This document shows, piece after piece, positions 11,408 to 23,902 of a DNA stretch of 64,000 nt. Each line of letters opens with the position of its first letter. Within the stretch, counting starts at the first letter, position 1. The stretch is from Fluviicola sp. Its GTDB lineage: Bacteria > Bacteroidota > Bacteroidia > Flavobacteriales_D > Crocinitomicaceae. Both the position numbers and the translations under genes were made by a program. The DNA is taken from assembly GCA_002734085.1 (NCBI GenBank), contig NVXV01000002.1, positions 62,001 to 126,000 on the forward strand, given 5' to 3'. Under the pieces are notes generated by a model. The model was not told the DNA's origin, ran no database searches, and worked only from the letters and a program-made list of their open reading frames with translations.

Positions 11408-12916
11408 TTAGTTCTGATAAACTTGTTTTACATGACCATCATTGTAATATTCAAAGACAATGCCTTTGTAATCCTCATCCACTTCTTGCCCCATAGCATT
11501 TATACGCTTGAGCAACTTTCTGTTTTGAGAATTGTCAATGGAAATAATATTATGTGTATTAATTGCACCATCAAAATCAACTTGCTTTAAGCGATAATAG
11601 TTGATTCCGTTTGCAAAATCACGGTGTGTAGTGAAGTAAGTGTTTTCAACATTACTACTTCCAGCACCTGATATTTTTTCTATTTCATTCCATGTTTCAC
11701 CATCTGATGAATACTCCAGAATAAAATAATCGTTATTTGTTTCTGAAGCTGTTGTCCAGTAGAGTTGATTGAGGTTGTTCTTTTTGTTTCCAGTGAATGA
11801 AACTAAATCTACTGGAAGTGGAATCGTTGTACAATCCAAACTAGCTGTCCCACCCCAGTTAAGATCAAAGGGATTATTACTTCCTGAATAGTTGTCAATT
11901 ACAAGAATATATACTTCTCCTGACTGTACATTTAACGGTGCTACCCAACTGTTTCCAAAAGCACCTTCTGAATTGTCTGAGGCTCCATTACCGAGACCTG
12001 TTGCTCCCGTTCCAGCAGCCCATGAACATCTTACGGGATTCTGTATTGGGGGACAGTTTGCATTAGCTGTACTTGCATTGTAATCTCCCCAAACTGCAAA
12101 ATCATAATCATCAGCGGCAACAGGATTAATCGACATTTCTAATGTTCCATTTGAACCTACAAAAATATAATACCATGAAGATTGATTTTCACCATCTAAA
12201 CAACCTTCATTACTTGCATTTAAATCATTATAATTTCCTGAACCACTTGAGTTACCTGAAAAAGAACTGTTACTACATACCATTTGGGCACCTTCACAAT
12301 CCTGAGGAGTTGGAGTAGGTCCTGAACAAGCAGTCGTTGAAGTATAAACAAGTCCTGTCTGAGGCGAAGGTCCATCAGAAAAAAGTGTTGCTGATGGATT
12401 GGATATCGTATAGGTATTTTCACCTTCAAAACTCCCAGATGTATAGTCTAGTTCTAAGGTTTGACCATCACAATAGGCTATATTTACTGTAGTTCCAGTA
12501 CCACTTGCTGAATAGTTGGTTGCGCTACCATCAATTGTAACTGTTAAAAAACCACCATTCCAACCATCTCCCCAGCTATCAAACATTTCTAATGTTAAAT
12601 TACAACACGCTTTTGTAATGTAATTTTCAGAACCCTTGTTACCATCGGCTTCAGATTTTTCAAAAAAAGTAAGGTTTTCACCAAGGGAAGAAACAATATC
12701 TTCAAAATATTGCTCGTCATGATTTTCATGAGATTCAATTATAAGAAAAGAATTATTGTCTATTTTACGACTGATGAAATTTATATTTTCAGTAATTTGT
12801 GATAAAATTTCCTTAGGTTGTTCCTTAGGGGAAATGTCTATTTTATAGGTGAAAATATCCTGTGTATATCCAAAATTCACAAAACAAAATAATAGCAGTA
12901 TAGATAAAAATCGCAT
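11408..12916 (-). CDS. Secreted protein with T9SS type A-like C-terminal signal
   Basis: 502 residues. Signal peptide 1-19. Residues 20-90 form a small alpha/beta module of unknown type. Residues 103-200 hold a domain with the motif DSWGDGWNGG. Residues 207-360 hold a Cys/Trp/Gly-rich domain ('YDFAVWGDY', 'CSWAAGTG', 'DNYSGSN'). Residues 366-455 are the beta-sandwich often found before T9SS signals ('PVDLVSFTG', 'NYYRLKQVDFDG'). The tail 466-502 (LLKRINAMGQEVDEDYKGI and on) resembles the sorting domain of this group. It is probably exported by T9SS to the surface. Residues 207-360 are similar to residues 28-200 of the protein at 21236-23902. Function unknown. Confidence 0.75.
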   Translation of the reverse strand: MRFLSILLLFCFVNFGYTQDIFTYKIDISPKEQPKEILSQITENINFISRKIDNNSFLIIESHENHDEQYFEDIVSSLGENLTFFEKSEADGNKGSENYITKACCNLTLEMFDSWGDGWNGGFLTVTIDGSATNYSASGTGTTVNIAYCDGQTLELDYTSGSFEGENTYTISNPSATLFSDGPSPQTGLVYTSTTACSGPTPTPQDCEGAQMVCSNSSFSGNSSGSGNYNDLNASNEGCLDGENQSSWYYIFVGSNGTLEMSINPVAADDYDFAVWGDYNASTANANCPPIQNPVRCSWAAGTGATGLGNGASDNSEGAFGNSWVAPLNVQSGEVYILVIDNYSGSNNPFDLNWGGTASLDCTTIPLPVDLVSFTGNKKNNLNQLYWTTASETNNDYFILEYSSDGETWNEIEKISGAGSSNVENTYFTTHRDFANGINYYRLKQVDFDGAINTHNIISIDNSQNRKLLKRINAMGQEVDEDYKGIVFEYYNDGHVKQVYQN

Positions 12917-15352: not shown

Positions 15353-15775
15353 ATGAAGGTTTTACTTATCATAATTTGTCTTATCAGTTCTTATGGCATG
15401 TCTCAAAATGAGATAAGCTGGGCTGTTGATTACGATAACACGGGTAATGAATTGAAATTCACTGCAGAGTTAGCAGAAGGATGGCATATTTACAGTCAAT
15501 TTATGGATGAAAATGCAGGTCCTATACCTACTAGTTTTGAAATTATTGGAGAGGATATTGAAATACTAGGTAATGTTGAAGAGCCTGAGCCAACAGAAGT
15601 ATACGATGAAAACTTTGGTTCAGATATAGCATATTTTTCAGATGAGGCTGTTTTTACCCAAAAATTAAAGTCAGGCTCAACAGGTGTTGTAAATATTGAG
15701 ATTGTTTATATGTTATGCAATGATGAGGGGTGTTTACCGCCAACAGTGAGTGAGTTTGAAATAGAAATTCAATAA
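15353..15775 (+). CDS. Stand-alone periplasmic DsbD N-terminal-like domain protein
   Basis: 140 residues: a signal peptide of about 17 residues, then one immunoglobulin-like domain of the DsbD alpha type. The motif 'EGWHIYSQ' near the start and the pair Cys122/Cys127 in YMLCNDEGCLPPT match the redox-active cysteine loop of the DsbD N-terminal domain, although the spacing is C-x4-C and not the C-x5-C of E. coli DsbD. It is 17 bases upstream of a complete DsbD gene and surely co-transcribed. It probably takes electrons from DsbD and passes them to periplasmic thiol partners. Confidence 0.85.
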   Translation: MKVLLIIICLISSYGMSQNEISWAVDYDNTGNELKFTAELAEGWHIYSQFMDENAGPIPTSFEIIGEDIEILGNVEEPEPTEVYDENFGSDIAYFSDEAVFTQKLKSGSTGVVNIEIVYMLCNDEGCLPPTVSEFEIEIQ

Positions 15776-15792: not shown

Positions 15793-18207
15793 ATGAAGTA
15801 TATTTTTTCTTTAGTAGTAGTCTTTATTACTACTTTTCTTTTTAGTCAGCAATCGGCAAATGATGTTACGAAGTGGAAAACTAGTGTAGAGCAAGAGAAA
15901 GGCGCTGAAGAAGCAACCCTGTGTATAGAAGCAGTTTTAGATGACGGTTGGTATGGATACTCGATTAAGGAAACACCCAACGGTCCTTTACCAACAGATT
16001 TTACTTTTGATGAAAGCGAGGATTATGAGTTAATTGGAGAAATGTCAGAAAAAGGCATGAAAAAAGGGTATGACAAAGTTTTTGAAGCTGATGTTAGAAA
16101 ATTTTATCCTTCTGGAACATTTAAACAAAAAATTAAAGTAAAGTCGAAAAGTGACTTTATATTAACGGCCTCCATTTTTTATCAAGTTTGTACAGACGGT
16201 ACATGTATTATTGGAGATAAAAATATCGACTTTTCGATTAGTGGAGTTAAGTCAAATGCTAAAGAGCAAGAGGTTGATCCTTTAAAAGAGCAAGGAAGTG
16301 ATGAAAACATAGAAAAAGTTGTAGATTCAATTCCACTGACTAATTCAGACCTGGTGGAATGGTCTTACGAGTTGAAAGAGGTGGATAAAAATGGAAGGTT
16401 TAACTTGTCTCTAGAAGCCGATATTGCAGATGGCTATAGTATGTCAAAAGTTAAAAACCTTCAAGGATTATTTAAAGTCCCTGATGGAAAAACTTCTTTT
16501 TCAACATTCATGTTGGCAGACGGAGTAAATATAGAGGATGGATTTTATGCTTCTCCAATACTATTTAGATCCACAATTGTTAGGTCGGATGACGCAAAGA
16601 AAGCAACGAAAATAACTGCAACGCTCGAATTGGAAAAAGACGGCGAGACTGTTGAGGTTGAGAAGGATATTGTGTTGAATTTTGCAAATGCAGAATTGCT
16701 GGTTTCTGGAGAATGTGAGCCACTTCGTTTTGAGGGAGCTGAAGATGAAGAAGAGTTTTCTTATTGGGAATTAATGATTGAAGCTTTTTTATGGGGAATT
16801 GCCTCATTGCTCACGCCATGTGTGTTTCCTATGATTCCAATGACAGTAACGTTTTTCTTAAAAGGAGCGAAAGAAAAAACAAGGGCAGCGGGTATTCGTA
16901 AAGCGACGGGATATGGATTGTCAATTATAGGTATCTATACCTTTATTGGGACAATTGTAGCAGTTACATTAGGTGCTGCATTTGCGAATTGGTTAGCTAC
17001 TCACTGGATTCCAAACGTACTATTTTTCTTGATTTTTATGTTTTTTGCCGCATCTTTCCTTGGGATGTTTGAAATAAGAATGCCATCATCACTGATAAAT
17101 AAATCGGATGCTAAAGCGGATAAAGGTGGTTTTATCGGAACATTCTTTATGGCGTTGACGCTAGTGCTGGTTTCGTTTTCATGTACAGGGCCAATTATTG
17201 GTATTATTTTAATTAAAGCTTCACAAGGGGCTATTTTGGAACCAATGCTGGGGATGTTTGCTTTTTCACTAGCATTTGCTTTGCCATTTACATTGTTCGC
17301 GATATTCCCTTCATGGTTAAGTAAACTTCCAAAATCTGGAGGTTGGTTAAATACGGTTAAAGTAGTACTTGGTTTTTTAGAAATTGCTCTTGGTTTAAAA
17401 TTCTTGAGTGTAGCAGATCAAACTTATCATTGGGGAATATTAGATAGAGAAGTATATATAGGCCTATGGATTGTTATCTTTACAATGTTGGCTTTATACT
17501 TACTAGGTAAAATTAAGTTAGCTCATGATTCTGATATGCCATATTTAAAAGTTCCGCGACTCTTTTTTGCGATGAGTGTTTTGGCATTTGTAGTTTATCT
17601 GACTCCTGGACTTTTTGGGCACCCTTTAAAGGCTCTTTCTGGTTATTTGCCACCAATGTCAACGCATGACTTTAATTTGTTAGGAGAAATAAGAGGGGAG
17701 GATGAAAATCAATGTGGTGACGACCCTAAATACAGTGATTTTTTACATTTACCTCATGGTATAGCTGGTTATTTTGATTATGAAGAAGCAATGGCGTGTG
17801 CAAAAGCACAGGAAAAACCTTTGTTTATTGATTTTACAGGGCATGGTTGTGTAAATTGTAGAGAGATGGAAGCGCAAGTTTGGTCTGACCCAGCAATCCT
17901 AAAAATGTTAAAAGAAGAGTTTATAGTTGTTGCTATTTATGTGGATGACAAAACACCACTTCCTGAATCTGAATGGGTAGAATCTAAGGTGGACGGAAAG
18001 ATGAAAACAACAATTGGAGATAAAAATTTAGATTTTCAAATTTGTAAATTTGATGAAAGTGCTCAACCACTTTATGCGACTATGGATGGAAATGAACAGC
18101 TTTTGGCAAAACCTGTTGGCTATGTATCTGTCAAAAAGTTTAAGCAGTTTTTAGAGCAATCTATAGTTGAATTCAAAAAGAAATCTAAAGGAAAATCTCC
18201 TATATAA
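15793..18207 (+). CDS. dsbD: Thiol:disulfide interchange protein DsbD
   Basis: 804 residues. Signal peptide 1-19; a first N-terminal domain (about 20-150) with the redox pair Cys133/Cys138; a second, similar domain (about 180-310) that lacks the pair; a membrane domain (about 325-610) with the two conserved cysteines Cys343 (LLTPCVFP) and Cys464 (SFSCTGP); and a C-terminal thioredoxin-like domain with Cys686-Val-Asn-Cys689. This is the complete relay that moves electrons from cytoplasmic thioredoxin to the periplasm, for disulfide isomerisation and cytochrome c maturation. The duplicated N-terminal domain makes it longer than E. coli DsbD (about 565 residues). Confidence 0.93.
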   Translation: MKYIFSLVVVFITTFLFSQQSANDVTKWKTSVEQEKGAEEATLCIEAVLDDGWYGYSIKETPNGPLPTDFTFDESEDYELIGEMSEKGMKKGYDKVFEADVRKFYPSGTFKQKIKVKSKSDFILTASIFYQVCTDGTCIIGDKNIDFSISGVKSNAKEQEVDPLKEQGSDENIEKVVDSIPLTNSDLVEWSYELKEVDKNGRFNLSLEADIADGYSMSKVKNLQGLFKVPDGKTSFSTFMLADGVNIEDGFYASPILFRSTIVRSDDAKKATKITATLELEKDGETVEVEKDIVLNFANAELLVSGECEPLRFEGAEDEEEFSYWELMIEAFLWGIASLLTPCVFPMIPMTVTFFLKGAKEKTRAAGIRKATGYGLSIIGIYTFIGTIVAVTLGAAFANWLATHWIPNVLFFLIFMFFAASFLGMFEIRMPSSLINKSDAKADKGGFIGTFFMALTLVLVSFSCTGPIIGIILIKASQGAILEPMLGMFAFSLAFALPFTLFAIFPSWLSKLPKSGGWLNTVKVVLGFLEIALGLKFLSVADQTYHWGILDREVYIGLWIVIFTMLALYLLGKIKLAHDSDMPYLKVPRLFFAMSVLAFVVYLTPGLFGHPLKALSGYLPPMSTHDFNLLGEIRGEDENQCGDDPKYSDFLHLPHGIAGYFDYEEAMACAKAQEKPLFIDFTGHGCVNCREMEAQVWSDPAILKMLKEEFIVVAIYVDDKTPLPESEWVESKVDGKMKTTIGDKNLDFQICKFDESAQPLYATMDGNEQLLAKPVGYVSVKKFKQFLEQSIVEFKKKSKGKSPI

Positions 18208-19424: not shown

Positions 19425-20735
<1,311 letters not shown>

Positions 20736-20861: not shown

Positions 20862-21227
20862 ATGAAATACATTGTTTTATTAGCTTTATTATCACTAACA
20901 TCAGTTGGTATAGCGCAATCTGTTAACAATAACGTTGATGGAGTTCAGTTTTTTTCTCAAGTAATAATGGCAGATGATATAAGTTCATCCGAATTAGGAG
21001 ATATCCAACAAGACTTGAACCAAAACCCGAATGTTCAAATGGCTAGAGTAGATCAAATGAACAAAACAATTTTTGTAGTAACGCAACCACTTGATAGCTT
21101 TGAAAGAGAATCTTTCGAAAGCTGGATTGGAGCAAATGCCAGTTTGGTAAATTGTTATCGTCAGGGCGTACAAGGTGTTGATGATTTTATCCCTTTTGAT
21201 GATAATTTTTGCACAAACTCAGAATAA
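20862..21227 (+). CDS. Small secreted protein of unknown function
   Basis: 121 residues with a clear signal peptide (MKYIVLLALLSLTSVGIAQ, 1-19). The rest is a single small domain with alternating predicted helix and strand ('SSELGDIQQDLNQNPNVQMA', then 'KTIFVVTQPLDSF'), a ferredoxin-like pattern resembling residues 30-90 of the secreted protein at 11408-12916. Two cysteines lie near the end. The next gene begins 8 bases after the stop, so the two are probably made together. I do not recognise a named family. Confidence 0.65.
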   Translation: MKYIVLLALLSLTSVGIAQSVNNNVDGVQFFSQVIMADDISSSELGDIQQDLNQNPNVQMARVDQMNKTIFVVTQPLDSFERESFESWIGANASLVNCYRQGVQGVDDFIPFDDNFCTNSE

Positions 21228-21235
21228 TTACTGTT

Positions 21236-23902
21236 ATGAGAAATATATTATTGATTTTAACGATTAGTTTACTTAGCACAATAGTTGTCGCTCAACAAGG
21301 TGGTGACATGTTGGATTGTGAAACAGCTGGTTATGGTTGTACACTTGATGATTTTGAGGCGAGTACCTTAGGTGGAGGAAATGTTAATGACCTTCCATCT
21401 GGTAATAATGTTTCTAACCCAAGTACAAATCCTGGTTCGGCTGGTAACTCTGGTTGCTTATTTAGTAATGAGTTAAATCCAACGTGGATTATATTTACTA
21501 TTTCATCTGCTGGATATTTCGAATTTACATTGGGTGAATCGGGAAGTAATGGTTTTTATGACTGGGCAATGTGGCCTTATTATGACGCTGGTTCACCAGA
21601 AAGTATTAATGGTGGTGATGCTTGTTCAGAAATTCAAGGAAATTTATTACCTCCAGCAGCTTGTAACTGGAATGCATCTAGTGCGGGGTATACTGGAATG
21701 GTCGAACAGGGTAATTTACCTCCAGGAGCCAATCAAGGTAATTTTGAAAATTCGTTTTGGGCAGAACCTGGTGATCAATTTGTTTTGATGTTCTCAAACT
21801 ATTCGGGTCTACAAAATCAAAATGTTCCGGTTTATACTGGTGCAGACATCCCTGGTAACACAAGTAATCAAACCGCTGATGTAACATGTGATCCAACATC
21901 TGTTGGAAACACTATATGTTTAGGTGATGTTGCTGATGTAACAATAAATCCAGGAGGTTTGACAAATCCAACTTATGAATTTTTAAATAATGCAGGTGAT
22001 CTTGTCGATCCAAATGCTCCAGGCCCAACTTTTCAACTAACCCCGACTGATACAACGATTTATGAGGTTGAAATTACAGATGGTACAGGTATGTTTATAG
22101 ATACAGTTGAAGTAACAGTTAACGTTGTTTTTCCTCCAGAACCTAATGCTGGTGCAGACTTTGTGGTTTGTAGTGGAGCTACTGGTACTTTAGACGGTAG
22201 TGTATTAAATCCAAATGATGTTACAGAGTGGACATTTAGTGGGCCTGCTGGTGGAGTAATTAGTTTTGCCCCAGATGCGAATACCTTAGACGCTGATATA
22301 ACCTCTAACATGGATGGTACTTATATTCTGACCTTAACAGCATCTAACGGTGTCTGTCCAGATGAAACTGACGATGTTGAAGTTATTTTTGAAAACCCTG
22401 AATTAACTCCTTCATCTCTTGCGCCAGATTGCTTTGAAGGCGATAATGGTGAGATTTATATTGATGCTCCAATTGCTACATCATATAGTTTTGATGGGGG
22501 TGTAACCTGGCAAGTAGATTCGTTTGCGACTGGTTTTTCGGCAGGTGCTTATCTAGTATGTGTGGAAAGTCAAAATGGATGTCAAAACTGTGAGAATATA
22601 GTGGTAGATGAAGGAGTGGAAGTTACAATTGAAGTTTCGGATGATACAACGATTTGTGAAAATGGAACTGCTACACTTGTTGCTGATGCTACTGGCGGTA
22701 CTACTTTTGATTATCATTGGAGTCATATAGCAGATCTCCAATCAACGCAAACAGTTCAGCCTTTGAATTCATCGGATTATACAGTATATGCAGAGAATGA
22801 AAATGGATGTCTTTCAGAAGAGAAAACAATTAGTGTTGATGTATTACCTCCTTTAACTGGTAATTCATCACCTTCTCAAAGTATCTGTCCTGGTTATTCA
22901 ACTTTTGTAACTGCTGAAGGTTTTGATGGAAATGGAGGTCCTTATAGTTATGTTTGGACTGATCCAGCAGGGAATGTAGTTGCAAATACGGCAACATTTG
23001 AGGCGTCCCCAATGTCAACGATTACTTATACAGTTACAATAACTGATGATTGTGAGTCGACACCATTGATTTTAACTTCTGAAGTTGTTGTAGCTCCTTT
23101 ACCAGATGTTCAATTCTCAGTTGACCTGGATAATAAATGTGTTCCTGCAACATTTGAAATTACAAATGATACAGACCCAAATTTAGTGTCCGAGTCTTAT
23201 TGGTATTTTTCTGATGGACAAACGATAATTAATATGGATAATTTTGAAGTAACAATGGATCAAGCGGGTATGTATGACTTAAATTTAGTGATTGTAACTC
23301 CTGATGGTTGTGTTGATTCTGCTCGAGTGAATAATTTTTTAATAGTACATCCAAAACCAAAAGCAAAATTCAATTTTGTGCCAGATCCTGTAACAATGTT
23401 AAATACAGAAGTGTTATTCCAAAACTATTCTATAGGAGCAGATACTTACCAATGGTATTTTGAAGAAGGAAATCCTAATTTCTCGACATTAAAAGATCCA
23501 GTATCTACTTTCCCTGAGGGGGTAGTTGATAATTATGAAGTTGAATTAATAGCAACCTCTATTCATAACTGTAAGGATACAGCTCGTGCAATAATTCAAG
23601 TTGAATCTGAAGTAATTATGTATGCGCCAAATACATTTACACCTGATGGTGATGAGCATAATCCAACATGGAGGGTTTATATTGAAGGAATAGACCTTCA
23701 AATGTTCGACCTTGAAATCTACAATCGTTGGGGAGAACTAATTTGGGAATCTCATAATCCTGAAGTTGGTTGGGATGGAACTTACGGTGGACAAGGAGGT
23801 GAGAAAGTTAAAGAAGGTACCTACGTTTGGAAAGTTCGTACAAGAGATTATATTAACGATAAAAAATATGAGTGGCAAGGACATGTCAACATCATTTATT
23901 AA
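21236..23902 (+). CDS. Large T9SS type B secreted protein with PKD/Ig-like repeats
   Basis: 888 residues from the ATG at 21236, which places the signal peptide (1-19) at the very start; the frame is open to 21209, inside the preceding gene. Residues 28-200 form a Cys/Trp/Gly-rich domain shared with the protein at 11408-12916 ('YDWAMWPYYD', 'ACNW', 'SNYSG'). Several immunoglobulin-like repeats and two PKD-like domains ('YWYFSDGQ', 'YQWYFEEG') follow. The end is the gliding-motility-associated (CHU_C) sorting domain, 'YAPNTFTPDGDEHN' to 'EIYNRWGELIWES' to 'GTYVWKV'. It is expected to cross the outer membrane by T9SS; its role at the surface (adhesin or structural) is inferred. Confidence 0.88.
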   Translation: MRNILLILTISLLSTIVVAQQGGDMLDCETAGYGCTLDDFEASTLGGGNVNDLPSGNNVSNPSTNPGSAGNSGCLFSNELNPTWIIFTISSAGYFEFTLGESGSNGFYDWAMWPYYDAGSPESINGGDACSEIQGNLLPPAACNWNASSAGYTGMVEQGNLPPGANQGNFENSFWAEPGDQFVLMFSNYSGLQNQNVPVYTGADIPGNTSNQTADVTCDPTSVGNTICLGDVADVTINPGGLTNPTYEFLNNAGDLVDPNAPGPTFQLTPTDTTIYEVEITDGTGMFIDTVEVTVNVVFPPEPNAGADFVVCSGATGTLDGSVLNPNDVTEWTFSGPAGGVISFAPDANTLDADITSNMDGTYILTLTASNGVCPDETDDVEVIFENPELTPSSLAPDCFEGDNGEIYIDAPIATSYSFDGGVTWQVDSFATGFSAGAYLVCVESQNGCQNCENIVVDEGVEVTIEVSDDTTICENGTATLVADATGGTTFDYHWSHIADLQSTQTVQPLNSSDYTVYAENENGCLSEEKTISVDVLPPLTGNSSPSQSICPGYSTFVTAEGFDGNGGPYSYVWTDPAGNVVANTATFEASPMSTITYTVTITDDCESTPLILTSEVVVAPLPDVQFSVDLDNKCVPATFEITNDTDPNLVSESYWYFSDGQTIINMDNFEVTMDQAGMYDLNLVIVTPDGCVDSARVNNFLIVHPKPKAKFNFVPDPVTMLNTEVLFQNYSIGADTYQWYFEEGNPNFSTLKDPVSTFPEGVVDNYEVELIATSIHNCKDTARAIIQVESEVIMYAPNTFTPDGDEHNPTWRVYIEGIDLQMFDLEIYNRWGELIWESHNPEVGWDGTYGGQGGEKVKEGTYVWKVRTRDYINDKKYEWQGHVNIIY

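Follow-up and report, generated by a model that had tools for sequence, protein, structure and literature searches.

A small exported protein gene is paired with the core of a T9SS type B cargo protein in Bacteroidota

The gene of a small exported protein (P0001) precedes the gene of a large T9SS type B cargo protein (P0002) in the window, which is the whole analysed stretch of 64,000 nucleotides from Fluviicola sp. In related genomes this small gene pairs with the Ig/PKD array and CHU_C core of the large protein and not with its N-terminal module. Such a conserved pairing of a small exported protein and a large surface protein suggests a dedicated helper or subunit. We regard it as possible, though somewhat short of an even chance, that P0001 is a dedicated periplasmic partner which binds the core of P0002 and aids its transport or assembly. 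The genes and protein parts concerned are:

11408..12916, minus strand: P0003, exported protein of 502 aa with signal peptide, alpha/beta part, DGWNGG domain, predicted PPC-like module, C-terminal domain and short type A-like end
11831..12301, minus strand: residues 206-362 of P0003, module common to P0002, predicted to be PPC/collagen-binding-like
12308..12610, minus strand: residues ~103-203 of P0003, DSWGDGWNGG domain, which is matched alone in several proteins of relatives
12644..12859, minus strand: residues 20-91 of P0003, alpha/beta part
19449..20735, plus strand: enolase gene (named by eye), used as synteny marker
20862..21227, plus strand: P0001, exported small protein of 121 aa with a predicted HMA-like ferredoxin fold without CxxC
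21236..23902, plus strand: P0002, T9SS type B cargo of 888 aa, starting 8 bp past the P0001 stop codon
21314..21835, plus strand: residues 27-200 of P0002, predicted PPC-like N-module, in place of which some relatives carry a Gly-rich or GEVED domain
21851..23899, plus strand: residues 206-888 of P0002, Ig/PKD array and CHU_C, the core tracked by the small gene
23624..23887, plus strand: residues 797-884 of P0002, CHU_C type B T9SS sorting domain (Pfam/NCBIfam)

In P0002 the signal peptide is followed by the shared module, the Ig/PKD array and the CHU_C domain, and a phosphoglycerate kinase-like gene (named by eye) comes next on the opposite strand. The initial annotation had assigned a type B signal to P0002 and a type A-like signal to P0003. 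The former is borne out, as the C-terminal domain of P0002 exceeds the curated cut-offs of both CHU_C (3.7e-15, 56.3 bits, cut-off 27) and TIGR04131 (1.2e-10, 41.4 bits, cut-off 35). The latter fared less well, since the C-terminal end of P0003 matches neither of the curated type A models PF18962 and TIGR04183 (0 families at E 1 with Pfam and NCBIfam). Elsewhere in the window a 140-aa exported protein is encoded at 15353-15775 on the plus strand, 17 bp before a DsbD-like gene (15793-18207, plus strand, named by eye). The N-terminus of the DsbD-like protein resembles this neighbour by eye, which is perhaps a genuine case of a domain both split and fused in the window, and a similar small/large pair was seen in one further locus (L050).

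The small family was identified in 67 of the 299 genomes of the order, with 75 matches altogether. The surroundings of all 75 were read and tallied by hand, which gives a count free of query-alignment bias. In 61 of them the next gene downstream is a module gene, one of these pairs (G022) being a marginal match (E 8e-4). Six small genes are found near another T9SS cargo gene. The cargo is a CHU_C protein in G117, G013 and G184 (Gly-rich by Pfam in the first two and by eye in the third), a protein which is Gly-rich by eye and has its 3' end outside the stretch in G176, and a Por_Secre_tail protein in G028, while in G034 the small gene is followed by a family iii gene (described below) and then by the gene of a GEVED/CHU_C protein. 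Another six, all from genus g22, adjoin enolase without a neighbouring cargo gene; in five of the six a NUDIX-like gene follows (by eye). The remaining two stand at a contig end (G054) or are by appearance a true HMA protein (G082). The gap between small gene and module gene is -4 to +12 bp in 46 of 52 pairs (loci L127-L191).

Strong module genes (E 1e-30 or better) occur in 77 of the 299 genomes. Of these, 59 are among the 67 genomes that carry the small gene and 18 among the 232 that lack it; the corresponding Fisher value of 3e-37 is not to be taken as a probability because the genomes are related. The suggestion of the initial annotation that the small protein and the large one act together is thus supported for P0001 and P0002, by linkage and co-occurrence and for a reason other than the resemblance on which it was originally based. 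The culturable relative Lishizhenia tianjinensis (L051) is among the carriers of the pair. The pair, otherwise encountered in Bacteroidota, was also found on a complete chromosome titled Glaciecola amylolytica (CP034120.1, L119), a gammaproteobacterial name, and this record may be mislabelled.

The position next to enolase offers a different explanation for the linkage. The small protein might have its own envelope function and merely share an operon and the synteny block enolase - small gene - large gene with the cargo, which we consider quite unlikely. The persistence of the small gene in g22 without a large gene next door would agree with it. However, the pair also occurs away from enolase, whose signature was found in 30 of the 52 named stretches holding the small gene and was missing from the other 22, some of which are short. 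Moreover, seven genomes (G018, G134, G147, G161, G210, G217 and G227) have additional, divergent copies of the small gene, which again precede module genes.

The unlinked small genes of g22 are also what was found of a situation that the initial annotation had named as contrary to a joint action, namely the small gene in many genomes without the large one. Six g22 genomes keep the small gene beside enolase and without a large neighbour. Their module genes are located elsewhere, by eye beside an sdhB-like gene in all six and a fabF-like gene in five of the six. Against the P0002 core they score 143-177 bits, and in three of the six the match extends over nearly its full length (28-30%). These genomes have 34-52 CHU_C matches each, and four g22 CHU_C genes with another N-terminal domain match the P0002 core at 184-223 bits, as seen in 20 stretches chosen by size among the matches listed. 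Judged from these sequences, a partner in trans is possible for the unlinked g22 small gene. Seven g22 genomes (G074 and six more) contain a module gene without the small gene.

Which part of the large protein the small gene follows can be seen from the proteins encoded beside it. Of 47 large proteins linked to the small gene and complete at the 3' end, 34 match the P0002 core (residues 206-888) over nearly its full length with at least 384 bits. The core match of the other 13 is 28-190 bits, and these poorly matching cores, like the unlinked small genes of g22, speak against the reading as a partner. Three large proteins encoded next to the small gene (L170, L178, L180) and one encoded one gene away (L171) have an N-terminus which is not the module, and match the core at 321-439 bits with 33-39% over 660-707 columns. 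The replacing domains are an ALK_LTK_GRD Gly-rich domain in L170 (2.8e-6) and L178 (8.3e-12) and GEVED in L171 (1.3e-20) according to Pfam, and a Gly-rich domain by eye in L180. Conversely, 24 module proteins with another companion or none match the core at no more than 177 bits and mostly over a part of it.

The tree distances of the 47 pairs, to which the non-homologous cores among them add noise, correlate with r 0.84 for small protein and core, 0.45 for small protein and module and 0.28 for module and core. The partial correlations are 0.83 for small protein and core given the module and 0.41 for small protein and module given the core, and 0 of 2000 permutations reach either value. The small gene pairs with the Ig/PKD and CHU_C core and not with the N-module. 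This core-specific co-divergence is a further point against an independent envelope function of the small protein.

The N-module itself is shared with P0003, whose reading frame at 11408-12916 runs on the minus strand, the plus strand over the same interval being full of stops. The initial annotation had described a common pattern of Cys-Leu, Trp, a YD motif, C-x-W and NYSG in the two proteins, and this pattern is real. Residues 206-348 of P0003 and 27-194 of P0002 are homologous with 31% identity (53/173) and E 3e-12 for the single comparison, and GCL, W, YDFAVW/YDWAMW, CSW/CNW and NYSG stand in register. In a model of P0003 20-362, which has an overall pLDDT of 66.9 and values of 55-96 for ten-residue blocks of the module, the module is similar to the collagen-binding/PPC beta-sandwich (3jqw: Z 9.9, 2.6 A over 105 residues; 5sv5: Z 9.8, 2.9 A over 103 residues). 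The module would accordingly have the same fold as the PPC and collagen-binding domains of clostridial and Bacillus collagenases, from which it differs by being only 15-16% identical over the aligned part and by the lack of a match to the Pfam PPC model in P0002 or P0003 at E 1.

Module proteins carry many different neighbouring domains and endings. Because the module occurs in so many architectures, it does not tie the loci of P0003 and P0001-P0002 together. It is an exchangeable N-terminal domain which says little about a common function, and a shared N-terminal domain of this kind is a poor guide to which proteins act together.

Besides the module, P0003 has a C-terminal domain that is common in relatives. 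P0003 matches were found in 54 of 59 genomes (the relatives and its own), many of them covering the C-terminal domain only. By eye, its short type A-like end recurs in relatives and is like the last part of type A signals. This ending of about 35 aa, MGQEV..YKGIV.EYY.DG...K, stands at the position of a type A signal (11411-11506 on the minus strand, L019, L020-L027 and L038) and is perhaps a shortened type A signal. In G008 the P0003 ortholog is present twice in tandem (L019), the downstream copy lacking an ATG at the expected place.

The alpha/beta part of P0003 had been described as resembling P0001, and from this it had been concluded that the same parts are fused in P0003 and split in P0001 and P0002. 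This resemblance turned out to be weak. BLAST of P0003 against P0001 gives E 0.32. The alpha/beta part was found in four proteins (P0003, two copies in G008 and one in G018) and in one truncated protein in G009. With signal peptides removed, the four sequences score 17.9 against the small-family profile, compared with 17.6 for the best of 200 column shuffles, at an hhalign probability of 8%; an earlier alignment that included the signal peptides had given 66%. P0003 alone, also without signal peptide, scores 21.2 (best of 500 shuffles 18.4; probability 27.5% in this comparison and 27-30% overall), while the other three give probabilities of 0.3-10% when compared singly. Four other small companions from the Fluviicola genome score 9.7-16.5 against this profile, and one companion of 106 aa in that genome (L229), ferredoxin-like by eye, resembles neither the small family nor the alpha/beta part of P0003 in profile comparison.

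The order of helices and strands in P0003 20-91 is compatible with P0001; the two cysteines that are invariant in the small family are missing from it. AlphaFold models this part poorly (pLDDT blocks 46-71), P0003 20-362 having been folded with module rows only in the alignment. A common ancestry of the alpha/beta part and P0001 is possible, judged from the profile scores. The reading as fused and split parts was not established by BLAST, by profile comparison with shuffles or by structure prediction. That P0003 unites the parts of the small and large pair in one chain appears extremely improbable to us. The module homology and a profile score of P0003 20-91 that exceeds all shuffles would favour it. 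Yet the small gene tracks the P0002 core and P0003 contains no domain of that core (no PKD, Ig or CHU_C match with Pfam), the invariant Cys pair is missing, the hhalign probability is no higher than 8-30%, and the alpha/beta part is confined to the four proteins and the truncated one in G009. As the module is exchangeable, its presence in both loci does not make them versions of the same system.

For P0001, structure prediction had been proposed in the initial annotation, and for the small protein alone it yields a confident HMA-like ferredoxin fold. The mature chain of 102 residues is modelled with pLDDT 92.8 and pTM 0.83 in the order strand-helix-strand-strand-helix-strand, which is also at odds with an outer-membrane beta barrel of the PorP/SprF type. 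Structurally, this model comes closest to metallochaperones of the HMA type (Atx1, 3k7r: Z 8.6, 2.2 A over 70 residues). Ribosomal S6 permutants tie with them, which indicates that the ferredoxin-like fold is a common one, and a Foldseek search with the model revealed nothing at E 0.001 or better. While the predicted fold is the same as that of HMA or Atx1-type metallochaperones, the family lacks their characteristics, as none of 53 members has a CxxC beyond residue 20 or a Pfam HMA match at E 0.1. No convincing Pfam match was obtained for the 53 members at all, the best being DUF6888 in two of them (E 0.0011). The family profile weakly matches one protein (L189, E 7e-7) that has a VCEMC motif and is by eye a true HMA protein.

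R62, C98 and C117 are invariant in all 58 sequences of the small family. A signal peptide was predicted heuristically for 48 of 53 members and a lipobox-like motif for none of the 53, and no T9SS signal family was among the Pfam and NCBIfam matches of the small protein.

Both P0001 and P0002 start with export-type N-termini, and from this, the predicted fold and the pairing with the core we infer how a periplasmic partner might act. The two genes are probably on one transcript, P0001 being made just before its cargo. P0001 would be exported by Sec and, because it has no recognisable T9SS signal and no lipobox, would remain periplasmic unless taken out by its partner. There it would bind the core of Ig/PKD array and type B signal via its HMA-like fold. 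This fold can be a docking surface in other proteins, and HMA-effector complexes are listed among the structural matches. Binding might keep the core competent for outer-membrane transport and assembly or help it through these steps. The PPC-like N-module would be the exposed and replaceable business end, and not what P0001 recognises.

The strongest rival to this proposal is that the small protein belongs to the mature surface complex as a subunit, binding the large protein in the periplasm, leaving with it and staying surface-bound. We hold this to be unlikely, albeit worth serious consideration. In genomic terms a surface subunit would look just like a periplasmic partner, and the pairing evidence (61/75 linkage, core tracking, tree distances) suits both; the invariant pair C98/C117 (58/58) would be well placed in a stable protein outside the cytoplasm. 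The small protein carries no recognisable T9SS signal, however, and six genomes keep the small gene without a linked large gene.

Small exported proteins of other kinds occupy the same position before cargo genes. Among 80 named loci retrieved with the module, a sample that leans to the small family as the search alignment was built only from large proteins beside the small gene, the gene directly upstream belongs to the small family in 52 cases, to a thioredoxin-like group without CxxC in seven, to family iii in five and to a longer relative of family iii in three, and nothing comparable was found in 13 (two of which are cut short upstream). The thioredoxin-like protein L073 matches Thioredoxin_8 at 7.8e-4, below the cut-off. 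Family iii has 21 matches in 20 of the 198 genomes of the class, and 20 of the 21 (L285-L305) immediately precede a large gene whose start is of export type (by eye); at least three of these matches belong to the query alignment, and most 3' ends lie outside the stretches. Three members tested gave no convincing Pfam or NCBIfam match. In the 80 module loci a small exported gene precedes 6 of 349 non-module genes, and four of these six are type B cargo (L060 and L062 with CHU_C by Pfam, L061 and L066 by eye).

In the Fluviicola genome itself, where genes and signal peptides were called by simple heuristics, a small exported gene is located directly upstream of 7 of 34 type B (CHU_C) and 2 of 24 type A cargo genes. 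The 34 result from 43 CHU_C matches (41 over the cut-off), of which 40 starts were taken and six had no usable 5' end. Among the controls, a small exported gene precedes 2 of 165 further genes that encode at least 250 aa and 1 of 47 exported-looking ones (Fisher 7e-5 and 0.008 versus 7/34), which speaks for the reading as a partner. The difference between type B and type A is not significant (p 0.28), which speaks against it. The same genome has a PorP/SprF-like gene (L233, 343 aa, by eye) 26 bp upstream of a CHU_C gene, a neighbour of the kind expected for type B cargo.

These observations may point to a general class of small cargo-dedicated periplasmic companions in Bacteroidota, a tentative proposal which we would rate as rather more doubtful than probable. 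The class would comprise several unrelated families encoded directly upstream, each recognising the repeat or C-terminal core of its own cargo, with N-terminal domains shuffled freely. The candidate families are the HMA-like proteins without metal site, the thioredoxin-like proteins without CxxC and family iii. By analogy, type III effectors are served by dedicated chaperones. If the partner reading is true, a conserved and unannotated small partner of the cargo core, together with unrelated small genes that take its place before other cargo, adds a periplasmic step to type B transport. A gene of about 120 codons makes this step directly testable. Our literature search, which covered most papers by their listing and some by passages and lay largely outside the subscription journals, yielded nothing on either the pair or the broader companion pattern.

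The KLIKK proteases are T9SS cargo. The potempins of the Tannerella forsythia KLIKK proteases are, like P0001, small exported proteins with a gene directly before that of the secreted protein, according to the part of the source available (PMC7296668). By this analogy of gene order the small protein could be a blocker or inhibitor of the large protein, which we consider very unlikely. Potempins are described there as lipoproteins and protease inhibitors (PMC7296668), whereas a lipobox is present in 0 of 53 small proteins and P0002 has no Pfam protease domain. Neither P0002 nor L170 contains an enzyme domain, Pfam revealing Ig, PKD, Gly-rich and CHU_C domains only; a BNR match in P0002 is sub-threshold.

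The SprF family consists of outer-membrane barrels. No SprF-like gene could be recognised by eye beside P0002. The PorP/SprF shuttles, known from SprB/SprF of Flavobacterium johnsoniae, are likewise cargo-dedicated partners encoded beside a type B gene, as far as the available parts of the reports go (PMC9143113, PMC12618676). SprF is encoded downstream of its cargo (PMC12618676, in part), in contrast to P0001, which is encoded upstream, has 121 aa and is predicted to have a ferredoxin fold. In the available passages of a 2023 review the transport of type B cargo is called "still not understood"; the cargo-specific partners named are SprF-like, are needed by type B cargo and are usually encoded next door, and PorV-like barrels are spoken of as well (PMC10202324). 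One set of GFP fusions suggested, according to the same passages, that the type B CTD alone is insufficient and that more than 200 residues are required (PMC10202324). Another report describes secretion of sfGFP carrying a type B CTD once its cognate shuttle was provided (PMC12618676). The Skp-like protein SkpA is described as part of the translocon in the portion of a further source that was available (PMC10994853). The proposed escort role of P0001 would be in keeping with this published work.
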